The notes under the pieces were generated by a model. The model searched no databases, was not told the DNA's origin, and worked only from the letters and a program-made list of their open reading frames with translations. The position numbers and the translations under genes are program-made. 36,700 nt of DNA. It comes from a virus. How positions within the stretch are numbered: the first letter of the stretch is position 1; each line of letters opens with the position of its first letter. The stretch spans positions 1 through 36,700 of IMG/VR virus record IMGVR_UViG_3300020477_000071; one strand, written 5' to 3'. Positions 1,720 to 36,462 of this stretch are shown in pieces.

Positions 1720-1728
1720 AGTATAATA
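1720..1728 (+). promoter_or_regulatory. Promoter P1 (AGTATAATA class) for the tail tube gene
   Basis: AGTATAATA with a perfect TATAAT at 1722-1727, in the 57-base gap before the tail tube gene. The only -35-like hexamer is TTGGCA at 1697-1702 with a long 19-base spacer. The longer block AGTATAATATAAAGA nearly matches AGTAAAATATAAAGA upstream of the portal gene. A dedicated promoter for the abundant tube protein makes sense. Confidence 0.6.
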
Positions 1729-1729
1729 T

Positions 1730-1750
1730 AAAGAACGCAAAATGTTCTTT
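1730..1750 (+). repeat. Perfect 7-bp inverted repeat overlapping the P1 start region
   Basis: AAAGAAC (1730-1736) and GTTCTTT (1744-1750) pair perfectly around a 7-base loop. The dyad lies at the expected start of transcription from P1. It could be an operator, a 5' stem-loop of the mRNA, or, because TTTTT overlaps the right arm, a weak terminator for the upstream operon. Confidence 0.5.
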
Positions 1751-1768
1751 TTCAATTGAGGAGGAAAT

Positions 1769-3460
1769 ATGGCAATATATCGAGCAGATCAAGCGCAACT
1801 AACGTTTGGCCCAGAAGCCGCTGCAGGCGGTTATGTAGAGATTAGCCCAGCAGATTTATCGGTTTCCGGAGGTAGCACAACGTTAGCTTCTGACCATGAG
1901 GCAGGCGTAAGAGAGATTACGGTTTCAAGCGCTACTAATTTTAGCGTTGGCGACCATATAGCCTTCGATAGAGGCGTTACAGTTGCACAACAGAAAGAAT
2001 CCGAGCTTAGGGTTATTGAACATATCTCAGGAACAACATTTACTTTAAATGCTCCAACAGCATTTTTTCATGCCAGCTCTTGCACAATTAAAGAAGTTAA
2101 TGCCTCTAGCATTACATCTTCCGCAGACCGCCAATACATTACTTTAATCCCAGGTGTTTACGAAACGGTAGATTTACCTGATCCAGAGATGTCTATTGAG
2201 CCTAGGTACTTTTTAGGAACAGCTTCGAAACGAAATTTTCATAGTGTGTATAGCGGACAACAATCTTATACGGGATCGATAGGAAGTTTTGTTTTGTTAA
2301 ACGGACGAGCTTTACGATTTCCTATCGGTAAAGTTAGCTCTTCTACTACCTATACTAACGATGTAACGGCTATGAAACGAACTTTTGCTACGGCTTTGAA
2401 AAAAGGTGAAATTTATGTCACTTTAGGCGCTACTTCTGGGGATGCAGCAATTGCCACCACTACAAAAGTAATGTTCGGTAGAGGAACTACCAGTTGTGAA
2501 GTTAGGCAAGCAGCTACTGCCTTAGCTACTAATACTGCTGGGACTATTACCTTGGACTATCCACTTCAATTTGACCATGCTGCTGGAGATATGCATGTAG
2601 TAGGTACAGCAGCTAGTAATACTACGATTGCTACTACGCAAACAATACCTTACACCCACACAATTACCGAAACGGTAGATTTAGATTCAATTAGTTGGAA
2701 CGCCCATATGCGAGCATCAAACGAAACTGCTACATATGATTTGAATCGCAGATATTTTGGAGGCAAAGTAGGAAGTGCTTCCATTTCAGCCGATGAAGGT
2801 GGGATGGTAATGATGTCTTGGGATTCAGTAAATTTCTTAGGCATGATACATAATCAATTAACAAATTCTAACGGATCAGTAGCAGTTCCATTTTATTCGA
2901 TGATGGAAACTATTGATAGTGATGGAGTAGATACGCCGACTACTGACCCATATTACTTTTCTAATGGCGAAGTTACAATATTTGGACAAACAATTGCTAG
3001 AATTAGAAGCTTTAGTTTGTCAATTAATAACAATGAAGAACCTAGATATTATGTTAGTAAACAGATGGGTCGAAGACGAGGCCCCTCTGAAATAAAAGAA
3101 CAGCGAAGAGAATATTCATTAGCTGTTACGTTAGCTTTACCAGATGCTGGTTTAGCTACAACAGCAGCTAGAACTTTGTTTAACGAGCTACTTCTCGAAG
3201 GAGATTACGGTAGTGGTAAAACAGGTTTTAACGTATCAATTACCTTTACAAGAGGAAATGTTGTCACCGGGTTTGAAGATAAAATGACTATTACAATTCC
3301 AGATGATGGCACTTCTGCAACTGGAGGTAATCAACAAGGAGCATTTATTAGATCGGCTCCACATGATTTTGGAACGGATAATCCTTTCCAAGTTGACGCA
3401 GATATTCTTTTCCGTAATTTGAAGATAGAAGTACAAGATTCAGAGCATTATTACCCATAA
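1769..3460 (+). CDS. Major tail (tube) protein with inserted beta modules
   Basis: 563 residues, ATG after GAGGAGGAAAT (strong site). It sits where siphovirus tail tube genes sit, just before the frameshifted chaperone pair and the tape measure. The C-terminal half (about 300-563) has the strand-rich, repetitive look of tube proteins and ends in DADILFRNLKIEVQDSEHYYP. The protein is far longer than the usual 150-350 residues. The excess is partly two copies of a beta module also present in the capsid and hub proteins: residues about 36-107 (REITVSSATNFSVGDHIAF ... SGTTFTL) and about 210-282 (AGTITLDYPLQFDHAAGD). It has its own promoter, P1. It polymerises into the tail tube. The function is inferred from order, size and composition. 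Confidence 0.65.
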   Translation: MAIYRADQAQLTFGPEAAAGGYVEISPADLSVSGGSTTLASDHEAGVREITVSSATNFSVGDHIAFDRGVTVAQQKESELRVIEHISGTTFTLNAPTAFFHASSCTIKEVNASSITSSADRQYITLIPGVYETVDLPDPEMSIEPRYFLGTASKRNFHSVYSGQQSYTGSIGSFVLLNGRALRFPIGKVSSSTTYTNDVTAMKRTFATALKKGEIYVTLGATSGDAAIATTTKVMFGRGTTSCEVRQAATALATNTAGTITLDYPLQFDHAAGDMHVVGTAASNTTIATTQTIPYTHTITETVDLDSISWNAHMRASNETATYDLNRRYFGGKVGSASISADEGGMVMMSWDSVNFLGMIHNQLTNSNGSVAVPFYSMMETIDSDGVDTPTTDPYYFSNGEVTIFGQTIARIRSFSLSINNNEEPRYYVSKQMGRRRGPSEIKEQRREYSLAVTLALPDAGLATTAARTLFNELLLEGDYGSGKTGFNVSITFTRGNVVTGFEDKMTITIPDDGTSATGGNQQGAFIRSAPHDFGTDNPFQVDADILFRNLKIEVQDSEHYYP

Positions 3461-3493
3461 GATACTAGAAAAACTAAATATAGTGGAGGCAAG

Positions 3494-3880
3494 ATGGCTA
3501 CAACTAGTCGAACTAAAGACGCGTCAGCATTTGACGTATCTAAATATACAGTTACCGGTGATCCCGTAATCCAAACGGTTACGGTAGAAGAAACCGGAGA
3601 TACCTTTGAAGTTTCGGTACAAGGCCTTAGCTGGGCAAAACGCAATCAATTAATTTCTGCACACATGTCTTGGGATATTGACGGTAATACAAAATTTAAC
3701 GCGTCAGAATATGTGAGGGCGTGTTTATGCGATATGATTGTAGATGCTCCTTGGGGCAAAACAACCGAAGCTTTTTTAATTTCTATAGACAGTAGATTAG
3801 GTAAAGCTTTAGAAAGTTTAGTACCTGAAGCTTTTGGTACAGATGATGTTACACCAATAGACACATTAAAAAACGCATAA
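3494..3880 (+). CDS. Tail assembly chaperone, short form (gpG-like)
   Basis: 128 residues, ATG after GTGGAGGCAAG. It lies between the tail tube and tape measure genes, the invariant place for the lambda gpG-type chaperone that coats the tape measure during tail assembly. The N-terminus is beta-like (VTGDPVIQTVTVEETGDTFEVSVQGL) and the rest helical (WAKRNQLISAHMSW; SRLGKALESLVPEAF), as in many gpG analogues. The ORF stops six bases after a canonical A_AAA_AAC slippery heptamer, so some ribosomes should make the longer gpGT-like form. Family assignment is by synteny and the frameshift signal; sequence similarity in this family is always low. Confidence 0.8.
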   Translation: MATTSRTKDASAFDVSKYTVTGDPVIQTVTVEETGDTFEVSVQGLSWAKRNQLISAHMSWDIDGNTKFNASEYVRACLCDMIVDAPWGKTTEAFLISIDSRLGKALESLVPEAFGTDDVTPIDTLKNA

Positions 3881-4122
3881 AAGCTTTTCTTGTTAATGCT
3901 GGAAATATTTCCAATGAAGAAAAGCTAACATATTCATATTGGTTAACATTTACAAAACTGCTAAAAGATGGGTACCCATATGAGGCAATTATGAAGTTTA
4001 GCGTAGCTGAAATTAATTTAATTTTAGCTATTGAAAACGCATTACATGAAAGGCAGCAAGAAGAACAAGAAAGACTGCAAAGAGTTTCGCAGGCGCGACA
4101 ATCTTTTACTAGGGGACGATAA
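3494..4122 (+). CDS. Tail assembly chaperone, long form by -1 frameshift (gpGT-like)
   Basis: If ribosomes slip back one base on A_AAA_AAC at 3868-3874, reading continues from CGC at 3874 to TAA at 4120-4122. This adds 82 residues to the first 127 and gives about 209. The extension is open and protein-like: it starts RIKAFLVNAG, contains YSYWLTFTKLLKDGYPYEAIMKFSVAEINLIL, and ends with a charged helix (HERQQEEQERLQRVSQARQ). It has no ATG start with a good ribosome site of its own. The stop overlaps the tape measure ATG (TAATG). In lambda the T part binds the tube protein while G binds the tape measure. Seen: signal and open frame. Known: gpG/gpGT biology. Inferred: that slippage occurs. Confidence 0.8.
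3868..3874 (+). promoter_or_regulatory. Programmed -1 ribosomal frameshift slippery site A_AAA_AAC
   Basis: The heptamer AAAAAAC is in the correct register (0-frame codons TTA AAA AAC), followed by GCA TAA. A perfect 10-bp stem begins seven bases further on, which is the usual spacing for a stimulator. Confidence 0.88.
3882..3926 (+). repeat. Stem-loop stimulator downstream of the slippery site
   Basis: AGCTTTTCTT (3882-3891) pairs perfectly with AAGAAAAGCT (3917-3926), leaving a 25-base loop. The loop contains the 12-base palindrome GGAAATATTTCC, which could form a small inner hairpin. The position fits a frameshift stimulator, though the stem is AT-rich. Confidence 0.75.
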
Positions 4123-5498
4123 TGGCAGATGCACGACCATTAATAGCGCGAATACAGGTAGAACACGGTTCTGCAGGTTCGTTCGGCCAAAGTGATTCCG
4201 AAGGATCTGGGGGAGGAGATCGCGTTCAACAACAAATTGCTAAAAATACAGGGCCTAGAGGGGTTAATGCAACGTTACAAAAAGCAATGCACACGACCTA
4301 TAAGAATGTTCAAAAGAAAGCTTCGTTACAAACTCTAGGAATTAGTTTAAGCATTGCGTCTCTTTTAAAACAATCGCAAATTTTTACTAGTTCATTAGGG
4401 GCTATATTTCAATTAATAGGCGCAATGATTGATTTATTTTTAGCACCGTTAGTTAAGCCTGTTTTAATTCCTTTTATTAAATGGATGGCCCGAAATATGC
4501 CAATGTGGGTTGAAAATGCTCATGCGATGTTAGCAACGCTTCGAGATGCTATTAGACCTATATTAGAAAAAATTTGGAGCATGATTCCACAAGTTGCTAA
4601 AGATAATATGGGATATTTAATAGCCTTTTTAGCAGGTAACTATTTCATTAAAAAATTAACTGGAGTTAATATTATTGGAATTGCTACCAAACCAATTGCC
4701 GCACTCGCGACAGGTATTTTTATGGGATTAGGAGTTATGTTAGCCCCATATCTTGTAGCTGTAGTAGCTTCTTTAGGCACGTTACTAGCCGCTCTAGCTC
4801 CACTAGCTATTTTAGGGTCTGCAGTATTTATAAATTTTTATAAACAAGGCAAATTAGATAAAATTTTAAGTTGGTTGGGCAAAATGTTTGGTCAAAATAA
4901 AGGAATGATTGATTTAGGGGGAGGTGTTGTAAAAGAAGGAAGTGTTGCTTTAATTGCCAAGGAGGTAAAAAAAGACCCCCCTGTAATAGTTCACACATCA
5001 TTATCGGAAGAAGAGATGGGAGACAATGAAACTAAAGAAGCAACAACGATTATGTTAGATTATTTAGAAACAAAAAATAATAGAGCAAGAGATGCGTTTA
5101 TGAATGAGTTTCAAAAACGTGTTAGAGAGATTTTTGGCGTACCTATAGGAAGTTTTCCACAAGGAAATGACCTTTTCACGTATGGGGCTAATTTGTTTAT
5201 GGACCAAGGTAAAGCAAAAACAAGTGGGGTATTTATGGGTCCTACATTAACAAATCCACTTGGACAAGGGTATTCGTACACATTTCATGTTACGTTAGAT
5301 GCCGGAATTTTAGCGAATTTAGGATATCAACGTGTAAAAATTGAAGGTCAAAATAGCGGAACCACCACAGCCCAAGCAGTGGTTGTAGCTAACGACTATT
5401 ATTTAGGCTCTAGTGGTGAGGATGATGACACACCTGGATTTGGTGCGGAACCTCTCCAAGAGCACCGAAATAAACACGGTGGCGTCTTTAGAGCGTAA
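4122..5498 (+). CDS. Tape measure protein (short)
   Basis: 458 residues. ATG overlaps the stop of the frameshifted chaperone extension, implying coupled translation. A Gly/Ser-rich N-terminus (EGSGGGD) is followed by a helical zone and long hydrophobic segments at about 75-110 (LGISLSIASLL; IFQLIGAMIDLFLAPLV) and 165-240 (YLIAFLAGNYFI; LAPYLVAVVASLGTLLAALAPLAILG). This is typical of tape measures, which may enter the host membrane during DNA injection. The C-terminal part is soluble and mixed. At roughly 0.15 nm per residue the tail would be about 65-70 nm, a short siphovirus tail. No lysozyme or peptidase motif was seen. Length control is inferred from position after gpG/gpGT. Confidence 0.8.
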   Translation: MADARPLIARIQVEHGSAGSFGQSDSEGSGGGDRVQQQIAKNTGPRGVNATLQKAMHTTYKNVQKKASLQTLGISLSIASLLKQSQIFTSSLGAIFQLIGAMIDLFLAPLVKPVLIPFIKWMARNMPMWVENAHAMLATLRDAIRPILEKIWSMIPQVAKDNMGYLIAFLAGNYFIKKLTGVNIIGIATKPIAALATGIFMGLGVMLAPYLVAVVASLGTLLAALAPLAILGSAVFINFYKQGKLDKILSWLGKMFGQNKGMIDLGGGVVKEGSVALIAKEVKKDPPVIVHTSLSEEEMGDNETKEATTIMLDYLETKNNRARDAFMNEFQKRVREIFGVPIGSFPQGNDLFTYGANLFMDQGKAKTSGVFMGPTLTNPLGQGYSYTFHVTLDAGILANLGYQRVKIEGQNSGTTTAQAVVVANDYYLGSSGEDDDTPGFGAEPLQEHRNKHGGVFRA

Positions 5499-5510
5499 CT
5501 AGGAGGATGT

Positions 5511-6122
5511 ATGACAGTAGCAATATTATTACGAAATGGTAAACATAAAAGCACGGTTTCTTCAGAAGAAGCAACTATTCGATACGGGTTAAAGTGTGAT
5601 AGTGTTACAATACAAATTGCGCGTTCTCCATTACAAATTCCTATTCCGGAAGCTTCACCCGAGTTACTGGATTTAGGTATTTCGCGTCCTTCTATTACTT
5701 TAAGTGGCTTAATAGATACTGTTGGACAAGCTTCCCACACAACTGCAAATTTTGAAAATATGGAAAGTTTTAGTGTAACACGTAAATATTGGAATTCTAC
5801 AACATATACAGCAGATACACAAACTTATTATATTCCGTATAAAAATAAATTAGAAAGTTTTGTGTTAGAAACATTAGGAACTTTTGATACGAATTTAGAG
5901 TTAGAAATTGGGGACGCTAATTATCCTATGTATAATACAGCTGCTGAAGCACAAACGGGTACTACTACCGTTTCGGATACTACAAATTCGGAAACTGGCG
6001 GTTCAGTATATATGGTAGCAATTCAACAATGTAGATTTCAACAAGATTCTTCTCAAGAAGATAGGTATCAATTTCAAATGCAGTTAGTTGCATCTGCACG
6101 AAAAGATATCATGTTTACGTAG
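5511..6122 (+). CDS. Probable distal tail protein (Dit-like)
   Basis: 203 residues, ATG after TAGGAGGATGT. It lies between the tape measure and the large hub/fibre protein, where siphoviruses encode Dit, the ring that connects tube and tip. The sequence is strand-rich throughout, with SVTIQIARSPLQIPIP, RPSITLSGLIDTVG and a closing strand pair (YQFQMQLVASARKDIMF). The phrase describing a preserved line of beta residues before 'sGliD' is common in tube/Dit folds, which share the tail-tube fold. No catalytic motif. A minor tube protein is the alternative. Confidence 0.5.
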   Translation: MTVAILLRNGKHKSTVSSEEATIRYGLKCDSVTIQIARSPLQIPIPEASPELLDLGISRPSITLSGLIDTVGQASHTTANFENMESFSVTRKYWNSTTYTADTQTYYIPYKNKLESFVLETLGTFDTNLELEIGDANYPMYNTAAEAQTGTTTVSDTTNSETGGSVYMVAIQQCRFQQDSSQEDRYQFQMQLVASARKDIMFT

Positions 6123-6134
6123 GAGGATATTGAC

Positions 6135-11342: not shown

Positions 11343-11726
11343 ATGCGTACCGATAAAAAGATTGTTCGACTACGAACAAGGCAACCGTTATTGACCGGCT
11401 CAGAAATTGGGCGTAGACTAAATGTATCCCGAGAATATGTTTATAAAGTACTAAAAGACGCTGGATTAAATAACAAGCAACCGCACTATAAGAAAAATAT
11501 AGTGCTATGTAAGGTTTGTGGAAGCATAACTCCACGAAAGCAAGTATTTTGTCCGACGGGGGATTGTAAACGGAAATATTTTTATGTGGATGTAGAATGT
11601 TCATTTTGCCATCATAAATTTCATTTACAACGAAGCCATGTGGTTCAGCGTCATAAAAGAGGTATGAAACATATTTACTGCAGCCAGAAGTGTTATGGTC
11701 TGGGGCAGAGGGATGGTATAAGCTAG
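11343..11726 (+). CDS. HTH protein with cysteine zinc-binding region
   Basis: 127 residues; ATG immediately follows the hub/fibre TAA, with only a weak GGG upstream, so translation is probably coupled. Residues about 16-42 form a helix-turn-helix (LLTGSEIGRRLNVSREYVYKVLKDAGL). Two cysteine clusters follow: CKVCG with CPTGDC at about 56-76, and CSFC with YCSQKC at about 84-118, suggesting two zinc sites. The second resembles zinc fingers that accompany phage homing endonucleases, but I see no HNH or GIY-YIG catalytic motif. A DNA-binding regulator is the simplest reading, especially next to the sigma-like gene. The 3' end overlaps the likely start of that gene. Confidence 0.6.
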   Translation: MRTDKKIVRLRTRQPLLTGSEIGRRLNVSREYVYKVLKDAGLNNKQPHYKKNIVLCKVCGSITPRKQVFCPTGDCKRKYFYVDVECSFCHHKFHLQRSHVVQRHKRGMKHIYCSQKCYGLGQRDGIS

Positions 11727-12283
11727 ATTTGGAGATTAATGAGGAACTCTTAGAAAAATGGGAGCCCAAGGTCCAAAAGTTTTTACAAACTACTTTTGTA
11801 AACGGTATGGATCGAGATGACATCGCCCAAGAACTTCGTATAGCCATAGTAAAAGCTGCGTCTCATTTTGATAATTCTAAAGGGGTTGTTTTTCACACAT
11901 ATCTTCATACCGTTATGGTTAATACGTTACGAACGTTAATAGCAAAAGCTCAAAAAACCAAAAATGTTAATATTACGTATAGTATAGACGGCATGGATGT
12001 AGACGATAATCCACAAGGGTTTTTACCTAATGAAATTGCTAATTCGTTATCGGATACAACTGCCTTAGAGTTTATTAACAATGTAGAATTGATGGATATT
12101 ATTACTAGATCAGATTTAACCACTAGCGAACTTCAATTCTTAGAGCTTCGTCTTGAGGGCATGACCATGGAGTATATTTCAGAACGCTTAGAAGATTCGG
12201 CATATAAGATTCGAAATACCATCCAAAAAAAGATACAAGCCTTTGTAATTACGAGGGATAAACTAAATGAGAAGAAAACTTAA
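11690..12283 (+). CDS. Sigma-70-like (ECF-size) phage transcription factor
   Basis: Up to 197 residues. Two starts are possible: GTG at 11690, overlapping the preceding gene by 37 bases, or TTG at 11729 just after its stop; neither has a strong ribosome site. A sigma region-2-like segment is clear: MDRDDIAQELRIAIVKAASHFD, then GVVFHTYLHTVMVNTLRTLI, matching the 'D-L-Q-E ... A-x-x-x-F-D ... F-x-x-Y' pattern of sigma-70 proteins. A region-4-like HTH lies near the end (LTTSELQFLELRLEGMTMEYISERL ... IRNTIQKKIQ). This architecture fits a small alternative sigma factor that redirects host RNA polymerase. It may read the repeated AGTATAATA elements found here, which lack clear -35 boxes. Seen: region patterns. 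Inferred: promoter target. Confidence 0.7.
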   Translation: MLWSGAEGWYKLDLEINEELLEKWEPKVQKFLQTTFVNGMDRDDIAQELRIAIVKAASHFDNSKGVVFHTYLHTVMVNTLRTLIAKAQKTKNVNITYSIDGMDVDDNPQGFLPNEIANSLSDTTALEFINNVELMDIITRSDLTTSELQFLELRLEGMTMEYISERLEDSAYKIRNTIQKKIQAFVITRDKLNEKKT

Positions 12284-20228: not shown

Positions 20229-20742
20229 AAGTAATTGGCAGATATTTCAAGACCTCCCTGAAACTGTATATATGGGGATTGACTGTTCATCTAAAGCAGT
20301 CCATGCGGTATTAGTAGACTCAACTGAAACCGTAATTGCACAGGGCAAATGGGATAGTAAAATTAAAGATTTTTCATTAAGAATTCTTGAAATTGCCCGT
20401 AAATTTGAACAAGACTTGAGTAAAATAAAAGTAGAAACAGAAGCAGCTGTTGAAGCTGCTATTTTTATCCAAAACCCTAAATCGACTATGGAGATATCGG
20501 GAGTTGTTCAAGGAGTACGAATTCTTTGTTCTCAACGAGATATTTATTGTCATCCTGTTGATAATCGGCATTGGAAAAAATATATTTTAGGTAAAGGTAA
20601 CGCTAATAAACAAGGTATTAAAGCATATACTACCGATAAATGGGGCGATATTTTTACTGAACAAGATTGGTGTGACGCAGCATGTGTTGCATTATGGATC
20701 AAACGGAAACAATTAGGCGAGCTTGAGAATAGTGAGCTATAA
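20215..20742 (+). CDS. RuvC-like Holliday junction resolvase
   Basis: 175 residues if started at TTG 20215, which follows GAGGAAGAG; ATG at 20272 would remove 19 residues and lies right at the first catalytic strand. RNase H-fold motifs appear in order: MGIDCSSKAVHAVLVD (first Asp), an acidic segment VETEAAVEAAIF (Glu), an inner loop GKGNANKQGI, and DWCDAACVALWIKR (last Asp). This is the order of RuvC-type resolvases, which cut four-way junctions made by the RecA-like protein or during packaging. It overlaps the upstream gene by 14 bases and ends 14 bases before the next. Confidence 0.78.
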   Translation: MVKHESNWQIFQDLPETVYMGIDCSSKAVHAVLVDSTETVIAQGKWDSKIKDFSLRILEIARKFEQDLSKIKVETEAAVEAAIFIQNPKSTMEISGVVQGVRILCSQRDIYCHPVDNRHWKKYILGKGNANKQGIKAYTTDKWGDIFTEQDWCDAACVALWIKRKQLGELENSEL

Positions 20743-26088: not shown

Positions 26089-26110
26089 CGCTAGAAAATC
26101 GAAAAAATTG

Positions 26111-26119
26111 AGTAAAATA
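26111..26119 (+). promoter_or_regulatory. Promoter P2 (AGTAAAATA variant) for the portal operon
   Basis: AGTAAAATA, one base different from the AGTATAATA element, lies 48 bases before the portal ATG in the only real gap of this area. The longer block AGTAAAATATAAAGA differs from P1 by one base. No -35 hexamer at a proper distance is visible. Confidence 0.5.
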
Positions 26120-26122
26120 TAA

Positions 26123-26138: not shown

Positions 26139-26166
26139 CTATCAGTAATTTAGCGAGGGTTAAGTA

Positions 26167-28041
26167 ATGAAGTTATCGTCATACTTACCAGAAGTGCCAG
26201 CATTGGCACAACAAATGTCCGATTTAAATGGGCAGATTAACATGCTTCAGCTTATGAAAGCATCTGGAGATACCGGTTCAGCTCCAACTATTGGTTTAGA
26301 TCACGTTGTAAATACGTGGGTACGCCATCAAATGGCATACCGACAGCAATTAGTTATGGACCTTCAGACTATTGCTATGTCGGTAGAAGAAATACGAGGC
26401 CCTTTAAACCACATAACTAGTGAAGTTTTTAGACGTGGATTTGATTGGGAGCCTAAATCAGACGATGCTGATTCCGCTAATTTGGACTATTTTAAGACTT
26501 TTTTAACATCCTGCAATGTTTTTGACCAATCATTAGAAGAAGTTTTACGACAGGTTCATTTCGATTTAAACTCAATTGACGATTGTTTTATTTATCTAGC
26601 TAAAGAATACTATGACGACAAAGGTACTCTGCAGTCGAAAGTTAAAGAAATTAGGCGTTTAAATCCAGCACTAGTTGAATTCGACTTAGATAATGCCGGA
26701 TTACCTAAAAACTATCATTTCTTATGCCCTATTCATCGTGAAGAAATTCATGAAGCTAAAGGTATTTGTCCCGAAGCAGGGTGTAAGTTTGAAACGCAAC
26801 CTGTAATGTATAAGTATTATCATAGGAATAAGCATTTATATTTATTTGAATCGGAAATTATCCATCTTTCTAAATTCTCTCCATCGGAAACATATGGTTG
26901 GAGTCCTATATTAACTATTTTTGAAAAGGCTCTAACCTTAATCGGTATGGATAAAAATCTGTATCGTTATTTCTTTGAAAGAAAAATGCCTGGTAGCATG
27001 ATGATGGTATTTACAGATGACCCTGAATCACTACGTAGAGAACGAGCTAATTTAGCTGCGCAAACTCGTTTAGATCCTAACTTTGTACCAATGGTAGCTG
27101 TATCGTCAAAGAATAATCGTGGTAGAGTAGATATGGTTCGACTGTTTCATACCTTACAAGAAATGGACTACTTACCTGTTAGAGCTGAAATTAGAGAACG
27201 TGTATCGGCAATGTGGGGGGTTACTCCAGCATGGCAGGGTTCCCCAGAAGCTTTTGGTGGATTATCTACTCAAACACAACAACTCGTAGTAATGTCTAGG
27301 GTTGTAGAAGGTGACCAAAGATTATTCCACGAAAAAGTTTTTCCTCAATTACTTGAAGCTTTTGGTGTAACGGATTGGAATATTTCTTTACGAGTTCCCG
27401 AAGAAAAAGCTGAAGCTACTCGTATTTCTTTTGCACAGCAACGCGTTTCTATGGCAAGCCAATTAAATAATATGGGCTTTACTATTAAACTTAAAGAACA
27501 AGGCGTAATTATGGAAGACGCTCAATTTATGATTGAAGGCGAAGTTGTACCTATTGTACAAATACAAGGAGAGCAACAAGCCTTAGCCCTTGAAGAACAA
27601 CAAGAGATGGCTGATGAACCTATCGAAAAAGCAATTCCAGGGCAAGAACGGGATATCGACGCATGGGCAGCTGCTAGAGATAAAAAAGGCGAAGATAGAC
27701 AATGGGGATATAGAAGACTTCCTGGCCGTCCACCTAAAGGTGCTACCAAAGAAATGATTAAATCTACGACATGGGTAGAATCTTTAATGAATCAAGGGTT
27801 TCCTTCACCAGTAATTAAAGAGGTTAATGATGACGGCAAACAACTTTGGTTTATTTCAGATGGCGTTGATTATGTAGGCGATATTTTATCTAATGGGCAT
27901 GTATTTGTAGAAAAGGCTACATTCGCTAATCCATCAATTTCCTACGCGCCTACACAAACCACTAAAAAACGGTTAGAACGTAATAATGTGCAAGGTGAGC
28001 CGTATATGGGAGAAACCATCGAAGATTCGGAGGATAACTAA
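26167..28041 (+). CDS. Portal protein with an inserted zinc-knuckle-like motif
   Basis: 624 residues; ATG after GCGAGGGTTAAGTA. Portal features: a helical N-terminal wing with VEEIRGPLNHITSEVFRRGFDWEP, a segment DCFIYLAKEYYDDKGTLQSKVKEIRRLNPALVEF, the ESEIIHLSKFSPSETYGWSPI region, then the long helix FEKALTLIGMDKNLYRYFFERK and GVTPAWQGSPEAFGGLSTQTQQLVVMSRVVEGDQRLFHEKV. This is the standard order for portals that form the dodecameric DNA gate. Unusual: Cys187, His190, Cys201 and Cys206 (CPIH ... CPEAGC), a possible zinc site. The C-terminal extension (about 490-624) may be a separate domain. The next ATG overlaps the stop. Confidence 0.85.
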   Translation: MKLSSYLPEVPALAQQMSDLNGQINMLQLMKASGDTGSAPTIGLDHVVNTWVRHQMAYRQQLVMDLQTIAMSVEEIRGPLNHITSEVFRRGFDWEPKSDDADSANLDYFKTFLTSCNVFDQSLEEVLRQVHFDLNSIDDCFIYLAKEYYDDKGTLQSKVKEIRRLNPALVEFDLDNAGLPKNYHFLCPIHREEIHEAKGICPEAGCKFETQPVMYKYYHRNKHLYLFESEIIHLSKFSPSETYGWSPILTIFEKALTLIGMDKNLYRYFFERKMPGSMMMVFTDDPESLRRERANLAAQTRLDPNFVPMVAVSSKNNRGRVDMVRLFHTLQEMDYLPVRAEIRERVSAMWGVTPAWQGSPEAFGGLSTQTQQLVVMSRVVEGDQRLFHEKVFPQLLEAFGVTDWNISLRVPEEKAEATRISFAQQRVSMASQLNNMGFTIKLKEQGVIMEDAQFMIEGEVVPIVQIQGEQQALALEEQQEMADEPIEKAIPGQERDIDAWAAARDKKGEDRQWGYRRLPGRPPKGATKEMIKSTTWVESLMNQGFPSPVIKEVNDDGKQLWFISDGVDYVGDILSNGHVFVEKATFANPSISYAPTQTTKKRLERNNVQGEPYMGETIEDSEDN

Positions 28042-29002: not shown

Positions 29003-30209
29003 AAACGAAGTTGATATTGAAAATGTTGATCCTGCTGGGATTGAACTAGATAGCTTAAAAGACCGTTTAAGTATAGATCAAAAGTTAGCAACTGCAAACG
29101 CCCGTGCGCTATATTATAGACGGCTCTACAATCAAGCTTTACAGAAAGACCGTAAGTCTAATTATTTAATAGACGCTATTTACGAAGCTACTTTACCTTT
29201 TCAAAAAGTTAAACCTATAAAGTACACCAAACCTACAGGTAAACGTAGAGGCGAATCTACCCAAACCGTAGTAGCTCCTCTTACTGATACACATATTGGT
29301 GAAGATGTTGATTACCAACAAATGGCTGGCCTAAACTCCTATTCATTTGAAATTTTTAATAATAGACTTTCGGGTTGGGCAGACCAAGTATTAACTTTAG
29401 TTGAACTCCGCAGAGCTTCGGTTCCTATAGATGATTTAATAGTACCTATGCTTGGCGACATGATATCAGGCGATATACATGACGAGCTCATAAAAACTAA
29501 TCAAGATAATGTTATGGGGCAGATGATTAGAGGAGCTAATTTAATTGCGCAAGCGTTAATGTCATTTGCACCACACTTTAAGACTATCACAGTACCTTGT
29601 GTAGTAGGTAATCACGGTAGAATGACTCGCAAACCCCCAATGAAAGATAAATATATGGACTGGGACTACATGCTTTATCAATGGGTTGCCGCTTTCTGCA
29701 AACATCAGACTAACATTAAATTTCAAATTAACACTAGTTATATGAACATTTTCCAAGTATACGATAAAAACGTTTTGATTATGCATGGAGATAGTGCTTC
29801 TGGAGCAGGATCAATAGCCACCATTACGAAAGTATTAACTAATTTACGGTCCGTTTTACAATTTAGAAAAGGGTTAGAACCTGAAAACGCTGAAGCTAAT
29901 ATGGAAATTTTAGAACCTAATTTGCTACCAACTAGTTTTGATTCGGTAATGATGGGGCATTTCCATAGAGTTGATGAGATAGACATAGGCACTGGCCACG
30001 CTATTATATGCGGATGTATGAAGGGTGGAGATGAGTTTGCGTTACAGAGACTAGCAGTTATTACTAAACCACAACAAATTGTAACCTATTGGCACCCTAA
30101 ATATGGCTATATAGGTAAAGAAACTATATATCTAAACGCATTTGATAATGTAGATAGTAAATTTGTGGACGTTTTGCCTGAAGTTTGGGCAGAAAGCCCC
30201 TCTTTTTAA
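28860..30209 (+). CDS. Metallophosphoesterase (calcineurin-like) with N-terminal HTH
   Basis: 449 residues; ATG after AAGGAGAGAACTAG, inside the zinc ribbon gene. Residues about 8-48 form an HTH-like unit (LLGATWPELVEYLQKEFGVKIHRTNIAIWY). The phosphoesterase motifs are complete: Asp143-x-His145 (LTDTHIG), GDMISGD (Asp200), GNHGR (Asn251, His252), MHGD (His309) and GHFH (His367, His369). These coordinate two metal ions for hydrolysis of phosphodiesters or phosphomonoesters. Phages often carry such an enzyme among head genes; its substrate is unknown. The end of the gene overlaps promoter P5 and the left arm of a hairpin over the next ribosome site. Confidence 0.8.
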   Translation: MKSKIPEEAKEHLIKKRLLGATWPELVEYLQKEFGVKIHRTNIAIWYKNEVDIENVDPAGIELDSLKDRLSIDQKLATANARALYYRRLYNQALQKDRKSNYLIDAIYEATLPFQKVKPIKYTKPTGKRRGESTQTVVAPLTDTHIGEDVDYQQMAGLNSYSFEIFNNRLSGWADQVLTLVELRRASVPIDDLIVPMLGDMISGDIHDELIKTNQDNVMGQMIRGANLIAQALMSFAPHFKTITVPCVVGNHGRMTRKPPMKDKYMDWDYMLYQWVAAFCKHQTNIKFQINTSYMNIFQVYDKNVLIMHGDSASGAGSIATITKVLTNLRSVLQFRKGLEPENAEANMEILEPNLLPTSFDSVMMGHFHRVDEIDIGTGHAIICGCMKGGDEFALQRLAVITKPQQIVTYWHPKYGYIGKETIYLNAFDNVDSKFVDVLPEVWAESPSF

Positions 30210-30227
30210 GTATAATAATTAGAGGGG
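30197..30227 (+). promoter_or_regulatory. Hairpin that can mask the ribosome site of the neck gene, enclosing promoter P5
   Basis: CCCCTCT (30197-30203) pairs perfectly with AGAGGGG (30221-30227). The right arm is the ribosome binding site of the gene starting at 30239. The 17-base loop contains the AGTATAATA element. A long transcript would hide the ribosome site, while an RNA started at P5 would lack the left arm. Confidence 0.65.
30209..30217 (+). promoter_or_regulatory. Promoter P5 (AGTATAATA) inside the hairpin loop
   Basis: Exact AGTATAATA with TATAAT at 30211-30216, overlapping the final bases of the phosphoesterase gene. The expected start near 30223 would give a short leader of about 16 bases that keeps an AGGGGGGG ribosome site before the ATG at 30239. 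Confidence 0.55.
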
Positions 30228-30238
30228 GGGATGTTTCT

Positions 30239-30790: not shown

Positions 30791-30806
30791 AGGAGAACTT
30801 ATTATT

Positions 30807-31013: not shown

Positions 31014-31017
31014 AAGT

Positions 31018-31043
31018 GCCCCTAAAGATGGCTCAATAGGGGC
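31018..31043 (+). terminator. GC-rich stem-loop at the end of the portal operon
   Basis: GCCCCTA (31018-31024) pairs perfectly with TAGGGGC (31037-31043) around 12 bases, starting five bases after the stop codon. No T-run follows, so it may slow polymerase or protect the RNA 3' end rather than terminate alone. Confidence 0.5.
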
Positions 31044-31067
31044 GATTAGAACAGAACTTCTATATTA

Positions 31068-31105
31068 TAGCTATTTAGACCAAATTCTACAATAGCTACC
31101 TTTTT
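31068..31105 (+). terminator. Probable intrinsic terminator
   Basis: TAGCTATT (31068-31075) pairs with AATAGCTA (31091-31098), and TAG/CTA can extend the stem past a bulged C. CC and TTTTT follow at 31099-31105. This is a stem plus U-tract just before promoter P3, though the stem is AT-rich. Confidence 0.6.
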
Positions 31106-31148
31106 ATATTATAAAGTCTACTTTTTCCGTAAATTTTACAAAAAAGTT

Positions 31149-31157
31149 AGTATAATA
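31149..31157 (+). promoter_or_regulatory. Promoter P3 (AGTATAATA) for the scaffold-capsid operon
   Basis: Exact AGTATAATA with TATAAT at 31151-31156, 110 bases before the scaffold ATG and just after a terminator. No -35 hexamer is present at the proper distance (CGTAAA). It should drive the scaffold and major capsid genes and leave a leader of about 100 bases. Confidence 0.65.
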
Positions 31158-31163
31158 ACTTGT

Positions 31164-31179
31164 ATAGCATAATTGCTAT
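31164..31179 (+). repeat. 6-bp hairpin at the 5' end of the scaffold-capsid transcript
   Basis: ATAGCA (31164-31169) pairs perfectly with TGCTAT (31174-31179) around a 4-base loop, starting where transcription from P3 is expected to begin. The rest of the leader (to 31266) holds a possible GGTC/GACC stem (about 31200-31219), and the AAGGAGG ribosome site. Confidence 0.5.
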
Positions 31180-31266
31180 TATATAACCGCTTACGGAGAG
31201 GTCGGACGTGGCTTAGACCAACCTTTCTTAAAGTAGTATAAAAAACTATTATAAGGAGGACCACTA

Positions 31267-32058
31267 ATGGCAGATGAGATTTATAGTCGAATCGAAAAGC
31301 AATTAGAAGGCAATAGTCTGGCTCTTTCCGCTGTAGCTGAAGTACTTCAGAAAATGGACGCAAGAATGTCCGAACAAGATGAAGTTGCTATAGCTAAACA
31401 GGAAGAAGAAGCTGCTGCAGCTGACAGACAAGCTCTTATTAAAGAGATTGCTTCTGAAGTTGCAACTATTATCAAAGCTGATGCTGGCATGGATGTTTCT
31501 GGTGAGGTTCGTCCCGCTGAAGGCGCAGGTAAAACTGCTGCTGACGCTGACGACTCGGAAACTGAAATAGAGCCTACTTCAAACATCGAAGACCAACAGG
31601 CTACTATCCAAGCAATGGCACATGAAGATGAAGAAGAAGACGTAGAAAAAGAAGAGGACGAAGACGCTGAAAAAGCAATGTATTACAAAGAAGAGAATGG
31701 CGATGACGAAGATGTCGAGAAAGAAGAGGATGACGACGACGAAATTAAAGCAATGGCTAAACAATTAGAAGAATTGAAGAAGCAAGTTGCAGATTACGAA
31801 GTTAACATGCAAAAATCAATTCAGACTGAATCTGAAAATAGATTGAGAAAGATGGGATTTAGAGAGGAAACTAGTCTGAATGCACCTAAAATGGTTGACC
31901 CACTAGGTGTAGATGGTACTGATGTCATACAAAAAGGTACTGATAACCTCGATACTGTAGACCAGTTAACTAATTTGTCTTACAAAGAACTAAGAGATCT
32001 ACAGACCAACATTGAACAAGGTAACACTGACGGTGTACCACAAGAATTACTCGGATAA
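31267..32058 (+). CDS. Capsid assembly scaffolding protein
   Basis: 263 residues; ATG after AAGGAGGACCACTA (strong site). It directly precedes the major capsid gene. Features are those of scaffolds: an N-terminal helix (SRIEKQLEGNSLALSAVAEVLQKMDARM), Ala/Glu-rich helices, a very acidic stretch at about 118-160 with a near-repeat of DVEKEED, a coiled coil (QLEELKKQVADYEVNMQKSIQ) and a C-terminal helix (YKELRDLQTNIEQG) likely to touch the capsid protein. It would be removed by the prohead protease encoded further down. There is no similarity to enzymes. Function is from position and composition. Confidence 0.75.
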   Translation: MADEIYSRIEKQLEGNSLALSAVAEVLQKMDARMSEQDEVAIAKQEEEAAAADRQALIKEIASEVATIIKADAGMDVSGEVRPAEGAGKTAADADDSETEIEPTSNIEDQQATIQAMAHEDEEEDVEKEEDEDAEKAMYYKEENGDDEDVEKEEDDDDEIKAMAKQLEELKKQVADYEVNMQKSIQTESENRLRKMGFREETSLNAPKMVDPLGVDGTDVIQKGTDNLDTVDQLTNLSYKELRDLQTNIEQGNTDGVPQELLG

Positions 32059-32087
32059 TCAAAAATTTTATTAGGAGGAAATGAGTA

Positions 32088-33422
32088 ATGGCTAATCCAA
32101 GCTTAACCGAATATCTAGCTCAATCCCAAAGAGGATTGTATCAGTCAGTATTTGGTCCTGAGTACATGCAAAAGCAGACCTACCATACCGTAGACACTGC
32201 TACTGGCATATTTAATACTACTTACGGCCGAAAAGTCTGGCAATCATTGAATAACCAAACTCGTTTCTTCAATGCTATCCCAAGAGTTGTTTGGGGTAAC
32301 ACAGCTGGTTGGAGGGTACGAACTGACAGAGGTTCAGGACGTAGCCGACCTGTCACTGAGACTGGTAGCCTCCCAACTGTAGACATTTCCAATATAGAAA
32401 CCGTTTCTTCACTACCAAGAATCGTAGGTACAACCTTCGGTGCTTCCGTGAAGTCCGTTTTCTCCGCACAATTAGAAGGCGGTGTTGGTGATGTTTTGGC
32501 ATTGGAAAACGAAAATGCACAAATGGACCACGTTAAAGAAATTAACGAAGAATTATTGGCAGGTTCTGCGTATCTAACATCCGCAGGAGCTACCACCACC
32601 TTTACTGTGCCAGCATCTATTGCAAAGCACTTTAAAGTTGGAGACGCTGTAGCACAATACGATGCTTCAGCAACTGGGCACGACAGACAAACTGGTTCTG
32701 TTGTTTCCGCAGTTAACACCTCTACTGGTGTTGTCACAGTAGCCACCGGAACTACTTTTGCCGATGGTGATATAGCCTATATTTACAGCAGAGGTGGAAT
32801 GACTTCCATCGACGACATTGTTATGCAAGACGGAGCTGCTGTAGGTGGCGTAACTTCCAGAGTAAGAGCTTATGACTTAACTATTAATGACAGAGCTTCT
32901 GGAAACTGGAATGCCGGCGCATCTGTTTCTTATAACAGCGGTAGCGGTAGAGACTTAACTCTCGCTATGCTGGATACTGCTATTCAGAAAATTAGAGAAA
33001 ACGGTGGCGAGCCAAAGCTAATCCTACTAGGACATGACCAATATTTTAATCTTGAAAGACTGTTAAGCTCTAACCAGCGATACATGGGTCAAGAAGAGTA
33101 TCAGGTCGGCGTAGGCTCAGAAAGAACTTTCCCAGGCACTCGAACTGGATTAGTTCTGGCAACGTATATGGGAATTCCAATACTCCCAGATGCAGACGTG
33201 CCAAAATCAGTCGCAACTAACGACGCAGTTCTAGGATCAAATGTTTATGTCTTAGACACAGACTACCTAGAAATTGCTGTTGCACAACCTACTCAGTATG
33301 TTGAAAACCGAGACTACTTCGCAGCTAATGCGTTAGTAGTAAGAGGTCTACTCTATACTATGGGTGAATTGCGATGCAAGAACATGTTTGTTCAATCCAA
33401 GATTGCGGACCTCAATAGCTAA
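32088..33422 (+). CDS. Major capsid protein (HK97 fold) with an inserted beta module
   Basis: 444 residues; ATG after TAGGAGGAAATGAGT. HK97-fold pattern: N-terminal arm, RFFNAIPRVVWGNTAGWRVRTDR, then the spine-helix region (ALENENAQMDHVKEINEELLAG), and a P-domain with LAMLDTAIQKIRENGGEPKLILLGHDQYFNLERLL, MGIPILPDADVP and a beta strand set near the end (VVRGLLYTMGELRCKN). Residues about 161-236 (TTTFTVPASIAKHFKVGDAVAQYD ... TGVVTVATG) form an insertion resembling the beta module in the tube and hub proteins. Codon choice is richer in C-ending codons (TTC, AAC, ACC) than in the replication genes, as expected for the most highly expressed protein. A strong hairpin follows. Confidence 0.88.
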   Translation: MANPSLTEYLAQSQRGLYQSVFGPEYMQKQTYHTVDTATGIFNTTYGRKVWQSLNNQTRFFNAIPRVVWGNTAGWRVRTDRGSGRSRPVTETGSLPTVDISNIETVSSLPRIVGTTFGASVKSVFSAQLEGGVGDVLALENENAQMDHVKEINEELLAGSAYLTSAGATTTFTVPASIAKHFKVGDAVAQYDASATGHDRQTGSVVSAVNTSTGVVTVATGTTFADGDIAYIYSRGGMTSIDDIVMQDGAAVGGVTSRVRAYDLTINDRASGNWNAGASVSYNSGSGRDLTLAMLDTAIQKIRENGGEPKLILLGHDQYFNLERLLSSNQRYMGQEEYQVGVGSERTFPGTRTGLVLATYMGIPILPDADVPKSVATNDAVLGSNVYVLDTDYLEIAVAQPTQYVENRDYFAANALVVRGLLYTMGELRCKNMFVQSKIADLNS

Positions 33423-33439
33423 TCTATAAGGTCTACAGC

Positions 33440-33465
33440 GTAGGGGGCTCTAGCGGGCCCCCTAC
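33440..33465 (+). terminator. Strong GC-rich hairpin after the major capsid gene
   Basis: GTAGGGGGC (33440-33448) pairs perfectly with GCCCCCTAC (33457-33465) around an 8-base loop, 18 bases after the capsid stop. No T-run follows (ATTAGTATATAC). It may be a partial terminator or an RNA-end protector that raises capsid mRNA above downstream genes. It is the strongest local hairpin I found. Confidence 0.65.
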
Positions 33466-33468
33466 ATT

Positions 33469-33477
33469 AGTATATAC
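33469..33477 (+). promoter_or_regulatory. Possible weak promoter of the AGTATAATA type
   Basis: AGTATATAC follows the hairpin after the capsid gene and shares AGTATA with the promoter set. It is two bases off the nine-base element and no -35 box is clear. It could start transcription of the 33514-36436 genes; this is tentative. Confidence 0.25.
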
Positions 33478-33513
33478 ACCAAAATATTAAAATTGAATTC
33501 TAGGTGAATAAAA

Positions 33514-33777
33514 ATGGCTGATACAACTGACCAAATCTCCATTGACCTAGCAGTGTACATGGAAAGATTAGATACGTATATAGCCACCCAGTCACAGTTA
33601 AATGAAACCTTATGCAGTCGACTGGAAAGTTTAGATTCGGAACTAGAAGATTTAAGGGATTGGAGAAGTAGGTTTTATGGAGCAAAATCATTAATGTTTT
33701 TAATGGGGATACTACTAGCTCACGGAGCAGCTGTGATTGCTAGTATGGTTACTGTGTCCTCAATTATGAACGATTAG
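33514..33777 (+). CDS. Small coiled-coil plus membrane-segment protein (possible holin/XhlA-like)
   Basis: 87 residues; ATG after TAGGTGAATAAAA. Residues about 10-52 form a heptad-like acidic helix (ERLDTYIATQSQLNETLCSRLESLDSELEDLRDW), then Arg residues and one hydrophobic segment at about 59-83 (LMFLMGILLAHGAAVIASMVTV). Small proteins with this order include XhlA-type lysis factors and some phage membrane proteins. It is the only lysis candidate I see. It sits between the capsid and head-decoration genes, an odd place for a holin, so a virion or assembly role is also possible. Confidence 0.5.
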   Translation: MADTTDQISIDLAVYMERLDTYIATQSQLNETLCSRLESLDSELEDLRDWRSRFYGAKSLMFLMGILLAHGAAVIASMVTVSSIMND

Positions 33778-33788
33778 GAGAAATACGT

Positions 33789-34709
33789 ATGGCAAATGAA
33801 AGACATACAGACCAACGAGAATGGGATATAGATTATTCTACCCGTCAATCGGTACACGCTGTTACTAAATATAGTCCTTTTAGAGAGGCTCTTAGTACAA
33901 CAGCTTCAACTTTATTTACACCCGGACAAGGCGAAATTGCTACAAACTGGGTACAAAATCCCCGAATTGAAGCTACTGATATAAGTATATTTACTGCTTC
34001 GGGATCAGCTATTTCTCGCAGTACAGCACAACAATCAGTAGGAGCTGCTTCTTTGTTAGTAAACCCTGCAAACTCAGCTAACCATGAGGGCTTTTACTGG
34101 GAATCTCCAAAAATTCCTTTTAGTGTAAACCCACAACATATTTCTGTCCAAGTTGAGCATCGTGGAGCATCCGCATCAGGTGCTGTTAAGATAGAAGTAA
34201 AAGATACATCAAATACTGTACAACACGCTGTATCTGATAGCTCTGATTTAGCAACAAGTTGGACACGCATAACTACCACTTATACGATTCCAGGATCTAC
34301 TGCCTCAGCCGCATATAGATTATATGTAACTACTGCTGGGCAACATAACATTAACTATTATGTTGATAAGATTATGTTTGAAGTACGAGAGGATACTGCT
34401 ACAGCTTCGACTTATGTAGACGGTTCTAGCGGAGTTAATTACGAATGGACTGGAACCGCTAACGATTCTAGCTCAATTAAAAAACGAGGCATGACCACTA
34501 TTAAAGGTATGAAGGTTACTAACGAATCAAGTACGGGTGGTGAAATTGTTTATTTAGCTATAGGTACTACTGCTACTTCTAGCACTGGAATACCTATTGG
34601 AGCGGGCGAAGCATTTGAAACAACTATCCCATTAGGATTTACAGATTATATTTCTGTAATATCTGCATCAGGCACACCTACAATCAGAGGCGTAATCTGG
34701 GGGGTCTAA
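33789..34709 (+). CDS. Head decoration / fibre protein with carbohydrate-binding-like domain
   Basis: 306 residues; ATG after TTAGGAGAAATACGT. Residues about 55-205 look like a CBM-type jelly roll: NWVQNPRIEATD, SRSTAQQSVGAASLLVNP, WESPKIPFSVNPQHISVQVEHRG, KIEVKD and YYVDKIMFEV are the ordered strands of such domains. Residues about 240-306 form a second beta domain (MKVTNESSTGGEIVYLAIG, then GAGEAFETTIPLGFTDYISVISASG) of a type seen in head-associated proteins. The likely role is decorating the capsid and perhaps sticking to polysaccharide. It overlaps the protease gene by one base. Sugar binding is inferred, not shown. Confidence 0.6.
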   Translation: MANERHTDQREWDIDYSTRQSVHAVTKYSPFREALSTTASTLFTPGQGEIATNWVQNPRIEATDISIFTASGSAISRSTAQQSVGAASLLVNPANSANHEGFYWESPKIPFSVNPQHISVQVEHRGASASGAVKIEVKDTSNTVQHAVSDSSDLATSWTRITTTYTIPGSTASAAYRLYVTTAGQHNINYYVDKIMFEVREDTATASTYVDGSSGVNYEWTGTANDSSSIKKRGMTTIKGMKVTNESSTGGEIVYLAIGTTATSSTGIPIGAGEAFETTIPLGFTDYISVISASGTPTIRGVIWGV

Positions 34710-36229
34710 TGACTACAATTGAATCAACAAACCAGTATATGTATCAAACTATATCAGATGATGCAAGCATTACTGTTATTGAAAAACAGTTTGGACGCAC
34801 AACTGCTCAGGACATTACTGAAGCGTTAGACGAATACAAACGTTTATTTAAGGCTGGAATTGCGTCAGATGCTGAAATATTAACTTTATCGAGAGCTTAT
34901 CCAAAAGATCCTATTTATCAAAAAGCAGCTAAGGATATAGATTCTGAACCTGTTGTTGTAGGCGGTCCAGCTAGTGTAGAGCTTATTGACCGTGAAGGCC
35001 ATTTAATTACTACTGATGCATTAACTAAAGCGTTTGATAAATATATGTCGAACTTTAGAACTAGAAACACCATGGTACTCCATTCTGACGTACAAGTAGG
35101 ATGGGCTTTACCAGCATATATAAGTAAAACGGGGCAAGTGTTTAAATCAGGTGTTGATGAAAAAGGTTTATTCTTTGTAACTGAAATTCGCAAAGACACT
35201 AAAATTGCTAATAGAGTTTTAGAGCAAATTAATGAAGGGAAATTAAAGTCATATTCAATTGCCGGTTCAGCTACTAAAACTCAAAACTTACAAAAAGGTT
35301 TAATGCCATACATGCAAGTAGACGAAATGGAATTAGCTGAAATTACTGTTTGCGAAAAAGGCGTTAACCAAGCCGCAGGGTTTGATATTCTTAAAGGTCA
35401 TGATGCAGCTACTACAACATGTACTGATGGAAGTTGTCTTATACACTTAGAAAAAGAAGATATAGAACCGCATAATCCCATTGATTTAATTTATAAAGAA
35501 AATGGTGATATTAATTTCTTTGAATCGTTTCAAAACTGGGTTGAAAAAGAAGATATTGTAACTTCGGGAAAAACCTTTCCTACTTTACACAACTTCGCTG
35601 GACGCGATGCAGAACATCATCAACTGTTAAGAGAGCAAGGTTTTCCATCTGAACAGCCTCAAGCTGCTATGCGTTATACGCCAGTGGTAGAAACCGCAGC
35701 TGATGCCGAAGGCATTCCACTAAAAAATAAACCGCCGTGGTATGTAAATGAAGCTGGGGAACATTTAGGGGAATATTTAGACGATTCTGCTCCTACGTTT
35801 AAGAAAGCAGAACCTAAAGAGGATAAAGGAACCGAGGATCAGACTGAAGAGGACTCAAACGATGCTTTCGAGCTTTTAGAGGAGTCCCCGACGGATTTAG
35901 TAAAAGATTCGGATAAACCTGAAGATAATTTAATAGGTTGGACCGAAGAGTTTAAAACTGAACAGCTAGAACTAGATACTGACATAGTAAGTGCTGACTC
36001 TGATGTACCTAGTACACCATCAATGGGTTGGTTTGATATGCTTAAAAGTTTACCCAATGATATGGATTCCGTTGTTGATTGGGTACATAATTTAATTGAT
36101 GAAATTAAAGTTGAGGCTGTTACGGAGTATGCGATGGACAAAGCTTATCCTGATTGGAAACAAGACAAGGAGGCTTTTTCCGAACATTTAACTGAAATGA
36201 GAACTAAAATTAAGGAGGGTTACAAGTAA
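34709..36229 (+). CDS. Prohead protease (HK97 family, S78-like) with long C-terminal extension
   Basis: 506 residues; ATG overlaps the preceding stop by one base, with GGGGGGTC upstream. The catalytic domain spans about 88-230: DREGHLITTDALTKAF, TMVLHSDVQVGWA (His125), LKSYSIAGSA (Ser183 as likely nucleophile), and MELAEITVCEKGVNQAAGFDIL. This matches the U35/S78 proheads proteases (His, Ser and the ExxxCxxG-x-N-x-AGF strand). It should trim the scaffold during head maturation. The extra 270 residues include acidic, low-complexity parts (DKGTEDQTEEDSND) and a helical end (DSVVDWVHNLIDEIKVEAVTEYAMD), perhaps cargo or scaffold-binding. Unusual: it lies after, not before, the capsid gene. Confidence 0.78.
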   Translation: MTTIESTNQYMYQTISDDASITVIEKQFGRTTAQDITEALDEYKRLFKAGIASDAEILTLSRAYPKDPIYQKAAKDIDSEPVVVGGPASVELIDREGHLITTDALTKAFDKYMSNFRTRNTMVLHSDVQVGWALPAYISKTGQVFKSGVDEKGLFFVTEIRKDTKIANRVLEQINEGKLKSYSIAGSATKTQNLQKGLMPYMQVDEMELAEITVCEKGVNQAAGFDILKGHDAATTTCTDGSCLIHLEKEDIEPHNPIDLIYKENGDINFFESFQNWVEKEDIVTSGKTFPTLHNFAGRDAEHHQLLREQGFPSEQPQAAMRYTPVVETAADAEGIPLKNKPPWYVNEAGEHLGEYLDDSAPTFKKAEPKEDKGTEDQTEEDSNDAFELLEESPTDLVKDSDKPEDNLIGWTEEFKTEQLELDTDIVSADSDVPSTPSMGWFDMLKSLPNDMDSVVDWVHNLIDEIKVEAVTEYAMDKAYPDWKQDKEAFSEHLTEMRTKIKEGYK

Positions 36230-36235
36230 CCAAAA

Positions 36236-36436
36236 ATGACAAACATTCTTACTCAGGCACTAAATTTTTTCCATTTGCCAAGCGGGCATAACTATCACGA
36301 CCACGCAGACCAAGAGTATGAACTGTATAAACATATAGAACATATTGATGAGCCAGTAGAGCCAACACATTGCAAGTATTGCGCTTTAGATAATAGGACT
36401 CAACAAGAAAAATACCGAGACAGTCATTTGATATAA
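36236..36436 (+). CDS. Small His/Cys-containing protein of unknown function
   Basis: 66 residues, ATG six bases after the protease stop. AAGGAGGG lies some 17 bases upstream, so the ribosome site is not ideal; coupling may help. The chain is rich in His (HNYHDHADQEYELYKHIEHI) and has a CKYC pair near residue 46, which together could bind metal. No family is recognised. It is followed by promoter P4 and the long inverted repeat. Confidence 0.5.
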   Translation: MTNILTQALNFFHLPSGHNYHDHADQEYELYKHIEHIDEPVEPTHCKYCALDNRTQQEKYRDSHLI

Positions 36437-36453
36437 AATCTGGTTACTTTAAC

Positions 36454-36462
36454 AGTATAATA
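36454..36462 (+). promoter_or_regulatory. Promoter P4 (AGTATAATA) ahead of the long inverted repeat
   Basis: Exact AGTATAATA with TATAAT at 36456-36461. The expected start near 36468 is just before the inverted repeat at 36471, so the RNA would begin with that hairpin. No -35 box is clear. It would drive the cysteine-rich gene and, if the molecule is circular, the neck genes at the left end. Confidence 0.6.

Follow-up and report, generated by a model that had tools for sequence, protein, structure and literature searches.

The strategy of redirecting host RNA polymerase to structural genes with a phage-encoded sigma factor is known from a few phages. An extracytoplasmic function (ECF) sigma factor (gp36 in phiEco32) is encoded by phiEco32, SU10 and Salmonella phage 7-11, in which sigma-70 promoters serve the early genes (PMC4331800, PMC4281155). 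The ECF motif of these phages, tAATGTATAtA, lies 6-8 nt upstream of transcription starts and before structural genes (PMC4331800, PMC4281155), and a recognizable -35 element has been reported to be completely absent from bacteriophage ECF promoters (PMC5333181). The late promoters of T4 are also without an upstream element, and in that phage a separate protein, gp33, acts as the sigma-4 mimic (PMC2988020). Here we analyze a 36,700-nt stretch of viral DNA (IMG/VR record IMGVR_UViG_3300020477_000071, positions 1 to 36,700; the window), which encodes an ECF-like sigma factor and carries the 9-mer AGTATAATA before its structural genes as the -10 part of what we term class-2 promoters. It is probable that the phage sigma drives the structural genes at these bipartite promoters by way of the host core polymerase. 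The nearest precedent is phiEco32 gp36, and the present factor-promoter pair appears to be new, with an upstream (-35) part unlike the described phage cases.

The window has exact copies of AGTATAATA at 1720, 30209, 31149 and 36454; every one of them is on the + strand, and the - strand has none. The variant AGTAAAATA is present at 26111. These positions are precisely those given in a preliminary description of this DNA, which omitted a further copy of AGTAAAATA inside a gene at 20419. That description placed the copies in or at gaps before structural genes or operons, and the placement in or at gaps holds for all four exact copies; the one at 30209 shares bases with the stop codon that ends the preceding open reading frame (ORF). 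The five class-2 promoters are listed below with their site scores, to be read against best null scores of 12.6-16.9.

1701-1728, + strand: class-2 promoter of the tail/tube gene (1769); upstream element CAGAAACTT at 1701-1709, -10 AGTATAATA at 1720-1728; score 22.5, the highest in the window
26092-26119, + strand: class-2 promoter of the portal gene (26167); upstream element TAGAAAATC at 26092-26100, variant -10 AGTAAAATA at 26111-26119; score 16.0
30190-30217, + strand: class-2 promoter of a neck-type gene (ATG 30239); upstream CAGAAAGCC at 30190-30198, a poor match, -10 at 30209-30217; score 9.6, inside the null range
31129-31157, + strand: class-2 promoter of the scaffold/major capsid operon; upstream element GTAAATTTT at 31129-31137, -10 at 31149-31157; score 17.7
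36434-36462, + strand: class-2 promoter of a cysteine-rich ORF (ATG 36576); upstream element TAAAATCTG at 36434-36442, -10 at 36454-36462; score 19.3

Taken alone, the window offers only modest evidence for enrichment of AGTATAATA: dinucleotide shuffles of its sequence gave an expectation of 1.06 copies on both strands, with 1 of 100 shuffles reaching four, and one-mismatch neighbours are not enriched (30 observed, 53 expected). As the 9-mer was picked after looking at the window, relatives provide the fair test, and these were collected from IMG/VR through the capsid protein (243 stretches) and through alignment of the sigma protein (377). Genes were called with a simple longest-ORF script, and sequence counted as non-coding takes in 30 nt at gene ends. 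With the window excluded, 246 kb of non-coding sequence contain 173 copies of AGTATAATA and 1,174 kb of coding sequence contain 27, a 30-fold difference in rate (0.70 versus 0.023 per kb). Equal frequency inside genes, the outcome that the preliminary description had named as speaking against a promoter class, is not what is seen. Ten 9-mers composed of the same letters have 1-28 non-coding copies each. Across 61 related contigs few non-coding 9-mers are as over-represented as AGTATAATA (133 copies versus 3.2 expected), and TAGTATAAT is found 103 times versus 1.3 expected. The sites also favour the coding strand in individual large relatives (15:0, 11:0, 8:0, 11:2, 11:2, 9:1 and 12:0), while eight unrelated large contigs, picked up through a chance pattern match, had neither a strand bias nor an excess over the reversed motif. 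Within the 10 kb around the sigma gene in relatives, 12 non-coding and 3 coding motifs were counted, the small number arising because promoters of this class are scarce there. If AGTATAATA were as frequent in the non-coding + strand of the window as it is in coding regions of the relatives, 0.089 copies would be expected, and the probability of at least four is 2.4e-6.

The pattern of gene associations is similarly consistent, as the relatives are syntenic and class-2 sites recur before the tail gene (1769), the portal gene or the gene preceding it, the neck gene and the scaffold gene, and after the gene at 34709, despite protein identities of roughly 40-60%. The 1720 promoter occupies the same position in 13 relatives. 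Upstream of the scaffold gene, AGTATAAT lies no more than 260 nt from the ATG in 97 of 98 loci, and the sole exception (G032) carries the near match TATGTATAATAG. The 36454 promoter follows the same gene in G010 (42851) and G004 (29995) and is also present in L006. G028, a close relative, and L034 both retain the portal-promoter variant AGTAAAATA in place, while in most other relatives the portal promoter lies one gene further upstream or none is found within 150 nt. Because its score lies inside the null range, the promoter at 30209 is called from its perfect -10 together with syntenic sites in G010 (36707), G023 (44251), G017 (38670) and G018 (26309). The scan of relatives thus confirmed the class before structural operons more strongly than the window alone had indicated, and the AGTATAATA sites are supported as a real promoter class conserved across this virus lineage.

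The preliminary description had characterized these promoters as lacking -35 boxes, which is accurate only in that TTGACA is absent; for the class as a whole it does not stand. Alignment on the 9-mer revealed TAGGATTTT, TAGAAACTT, GGTAATT and similar sequences beginning 19-20 nt upstream, and an expectation-maximization search over 92 non-redundant sites recovered [T/C]AG[A/G]AWWTT at that position with a log-likelihood gain of 128; the gain in control sequences was 40-52 after shuffling and 48-63 after rotation. The strict form of the element accompanies 22% of AG-TATAAT sites versus 2.2% of other TATAAT sites, and the scaffold promoters align gap-free from the upstream element through the -10. 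Class-2 promoters are therefore bipartite, with a -35-type part at fixed spacing, and the extended -10 without a -35 that is typical of gp36-type promoters is not what is seen here.

The putative cognate factor is encoded between the tail and portal promoters, next to a second conserved gene.

11729-12283, + strand: sigma-70-family factor, ECF-like, about 185 amino acids; an earlier ORF start lies at 11690, and TTG 11729 fits the homologues
11343-11726, + strand: helix-turn-helix (HTH) and Cys-rich/zinc-finger-like protein beside the sigma gene; Sigma70_r4-like HTH, 9.8e-6

Judging from the homologues, 11690 is too early and the true start is probably TTG 11729. The region 2- and region 4-like segments that had been noticed at 11690-12283 do belong to a true sigma-70-family protein with both regions, whose gene is conserved together with the motif and was found in each of the large relatives that were examined. 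The protein matches Pfam Sigma70_r2 (2.3e-11; nine of nine family members match, the best at 2.3e-12) and TIGR02937, the sigma70-ECF superfamily (52.9 bits against a cut-off of 42.9; nine of nine members), and its best sequence match in the PDB is E. coli SigE (3.7e-6). Sequence support for region 4 is weak, with a Pfam match in only two of the nine members. The AlphaFold model, which matches sigma factors throughout (mean pLDDT 73.9, with good domains and a weak linker), bears out the sigma fold: residues 1-76 overlay region 2 of sigma-70 at about 2.1-2.6 A, and residues 117-176 fit the -35-binding domain of SigD from M. tuberculosis (3vfz) to 1.7 A over 58 residues. Sequence and model together indicate that the gene product is a two-domain, ECF-like (group 4) member of the sigma-70 family, predicted to bind core polymerase, and the modelled region-4 domain fits an upstream element at the distance observed.

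Among described systems the phiEco32 group offers the nearest precedent, and the lineage shares with it a phage ECF-type sigma, sigma-70 promoters (here in a presumed early block), a short -10-like motif before structural genes and an SU10_MCP-type capsid protein. In contrast to that group, the motif is different and an upstream element is seen. The sigma proteins themselves are distant, as the present one matches phrog_351 (1.4e-9) and phrog_1740 (8.7e-9) while phiEco32 gp36 matches phrog_1740 at 1.9e-45, and hhalign found no significant pairwise similarity between the two. The preliminary description had likened the regulon to that of T4 gp55, and a resemblance to the gp55/gp33/gp45 system does exist in the proposed redirection of host polymerase to structural genes by a phage sigma and in the TATA-rich -10. 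However, the likeness to gp55 itself fails: one protein here carries both domains in the same chain, the promoters have an upstream element, and since gp55 (7d7c_F) aligns only to model residues 1-87, that is, only to region 2, the protein is ECF-like rather than gp55-like. Bacterial ECF factors such as SigE/RpoE, SigW, SigD and AlgU share with it the combination of regions 2 and 4 and a GGAA/AGAA core in the upstream element. The usual -10 of bacterial ECF promoters is not TATAAT-like, in contrast to the -10 here, and, also unlike those systems, no anti-sigma gene was identified here.

Alongside the AGTATAATA class, a distinct set of sites combines TTGACA with a TATAAT-like hexamer, at a spacing of 17 nt in 22 cases, 18 nt in 12 cases and any other value in at most two, indicating that the genome carries two promoter classes. 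Of 74 such sigma-70-type sites, 46 are TGn-extended and only 5 carry AG ahead of the -10. In the relatives they are concentrated in a block of their own (G010, 47-57 kb; G023, 53-66 kb), which includes genes for DUF932, GP88 and methylase-like proteins and is plausibly an early region lying past the right end of the window. A sigma-70-type site is also found shortly upstream of the sigma gene in six relatives, which suggests a cascade. In one of these, G047, an Hsp20 gene (46036-46446; L362:6036-6446) lies directly before the sigma gene, behind the sigma-70-type promoter.

In the mechanism that we favour, host sigma-70-type promoters (TTGACA-N17/18-TATAAT, often TGn-extended) would serve the separate, presumably early, block, and a cascade would lead from host sigma to phage sigma to structural genes. 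The two-domain phage sigma would bind the host RNA polymerase core, region 2 reading AGTATAATA as the -10 and region 4 reading the upstream element, with initiation at [T/C]AG[A/G]AWWTT - about 10-11 nt - (T)AGTATAATA before the tail, portal, neck and scaffold/capsid operons. We infer that this transcription is late and that a bacterial host supplies the core enzyme; eight records examined yielded no RNA polymerase subunit of the host type. Both the sigma gene and the promoters suggest that the host is bacterial, despite a portal protein (26167-28041) and major capsid protein (32088-33422) whose nearest named viruses are the haloarchaeal tailed HVTV-1/HCTV (about 27-30% identity). Attempts to trace the cellular origin or host turned up no closely related cellular sigma, only one 23% match in GTDB contigs, and a single tRNA-Tyr (G023), with no other tRNA clue.

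Several observations weigh against recognition of class-2 sites by the phage sigma. Sigma and motif have been inherited together within a single lineage, so that finding both is not independent proof of recognition, and many individual sites, 30209 and 31149 included, have a weak upstream element. The region-4 recognition helix is different in the G020 clade, where class-2 sites were too few to reveal whether this helix covaries with the -35 sequence. No convincing sigma-70-type promoter was found upstream of the window's own sigma gene, a search for a single-subunit RNA polymerase returned nothing but was run without a positive control, and the HTH protein, conserved beside the sigma gene in most relatives (among them G010, G023, G017, G020, G018 and G004), could take part, possibly as an activator or a sigma partner. 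The last point leads to the alternative that host sigma-70 holoenzyme is redirected by a phage activator bound to the upstream element, in the manner of MotA/AsiA at T4 middle promoters, with the protein of 11343-11726 as candidate and the phage sigma serving something else. The -10 hexamer TATAAT is indeed the sigma-70 consensus itself and the HTH/zinc protein adjoins the sigma gene, yet the hexamer is flanked in a specific way, with AG preceding and A following, unlike the TGn-extended TTGACA class of the same genome, and the region-4 domain of the phage's own sigma is suited to an upstream element so placed; we regard this alternative as unlikely.

Still less probable is that the sites are ordinary extended -10 promoters of host sigma-70, the 9-mer being a strong host consensus for which a phage factor is unneeded. 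The 9-mer does contain a perfect TATAAT, and in a few cases (G010 52226, G017 15157) TTGACA is present as well, at 17 nt, but a TTGACA-like box (at least 5/6 matches, 16-18 nt) accompanies 5% of AG-TATAAT versus 17% of other TATAAT sites, and the two classes occupy different genome regions. That the 9-mer is a conserved RNA processing or leader signal and no promoter is very improbable: hairpins do follow several window copies and a covarying hairpin lies in the scaffold leader, but a fixed-spacing upstream element and a -10 hexamer match suit promoters, and over 92 sites the RNA just downstream is not more stably folded than random non-coding RNA (p = 0.69), which also led us to reject the by-eye impression from the window of a 5'-terminal mRNA hairpin after every motif. 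Recognition by the phage sigma remains our preferred explanation.

Two RNA hairpins lie close to these promoters.

31194-31229, + strand: scaffold-leader RNA hairpin, 36 nt; outer stem 31197-31202/31221-31226, CGGACG bulge, inner stem UGG/CCA, loop CUUAGA
30197-30227, + strand: RNA hairpin CCCCUCU...AGAGGGG at the neck gene; encloses the -10 and pairs with the Shine-Dalgarno run

The scaffold-leader hairpin is present in 54 of 54 leaders of relatives, and a search of the contigs located it at no other place. It has a CTHAGA loop and a conserved CGG bulge, and residues in both loop and bulge are invariant. Pairing is retained in 98% of cells, with a covariation of 0.380 versus 0.150 when shuffled and covariation in the outer stem; an alternative GGUC/GACC fold was rejected, as it is 95% paired with no covariation. 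An Rfam search with the window gave no match at E<=1, and we consider the hairpin a candidate translational operator of the scaffold/capsid operon. The hairpin at the neck gene (-16.5 kcal/mol, z -2.2), specific to the window as far as seen, is lost in RNA starting at 30217; predicted folding suggests that it would hide the Shine-Dalgarno sequence only in read-through RNA, leaving RNA from the internal promoter free. In T4 gene e, a hairpin with a promoter inside it hides the ribosome site in read-through RNA (PMC3014915), and the 30209 site resembles the leaders of T4 gene e, soc and I-TevI, here from folding alone and in this window only. At 36471-36546 a 29-bp near-perfect hairpin (z = -10) directly follows the 36454 promoter and, by eye, is absent from the L006 equivalent.

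With moderate confidence, we propose that an uncultured lineage with a haloarchaeal-virus-like capsid and portal uses its own ECF-like sigma at two-part promoters and adds RNA-level control of scaffold/capsid expression through a hairpin outside Rfam. The lineage comprises hundreds of contigs, among which no cultured member was found, and its motif is usable as a marker of structural operons in metagenomic contigs. Early host-sigma promoters, a dedicated sigma and structural-gene promoters would together make a complete and testable transcription programme, and a phage sigma with both promoter elements allows one to ask why the described phage ECF promoters lost their -35 part.

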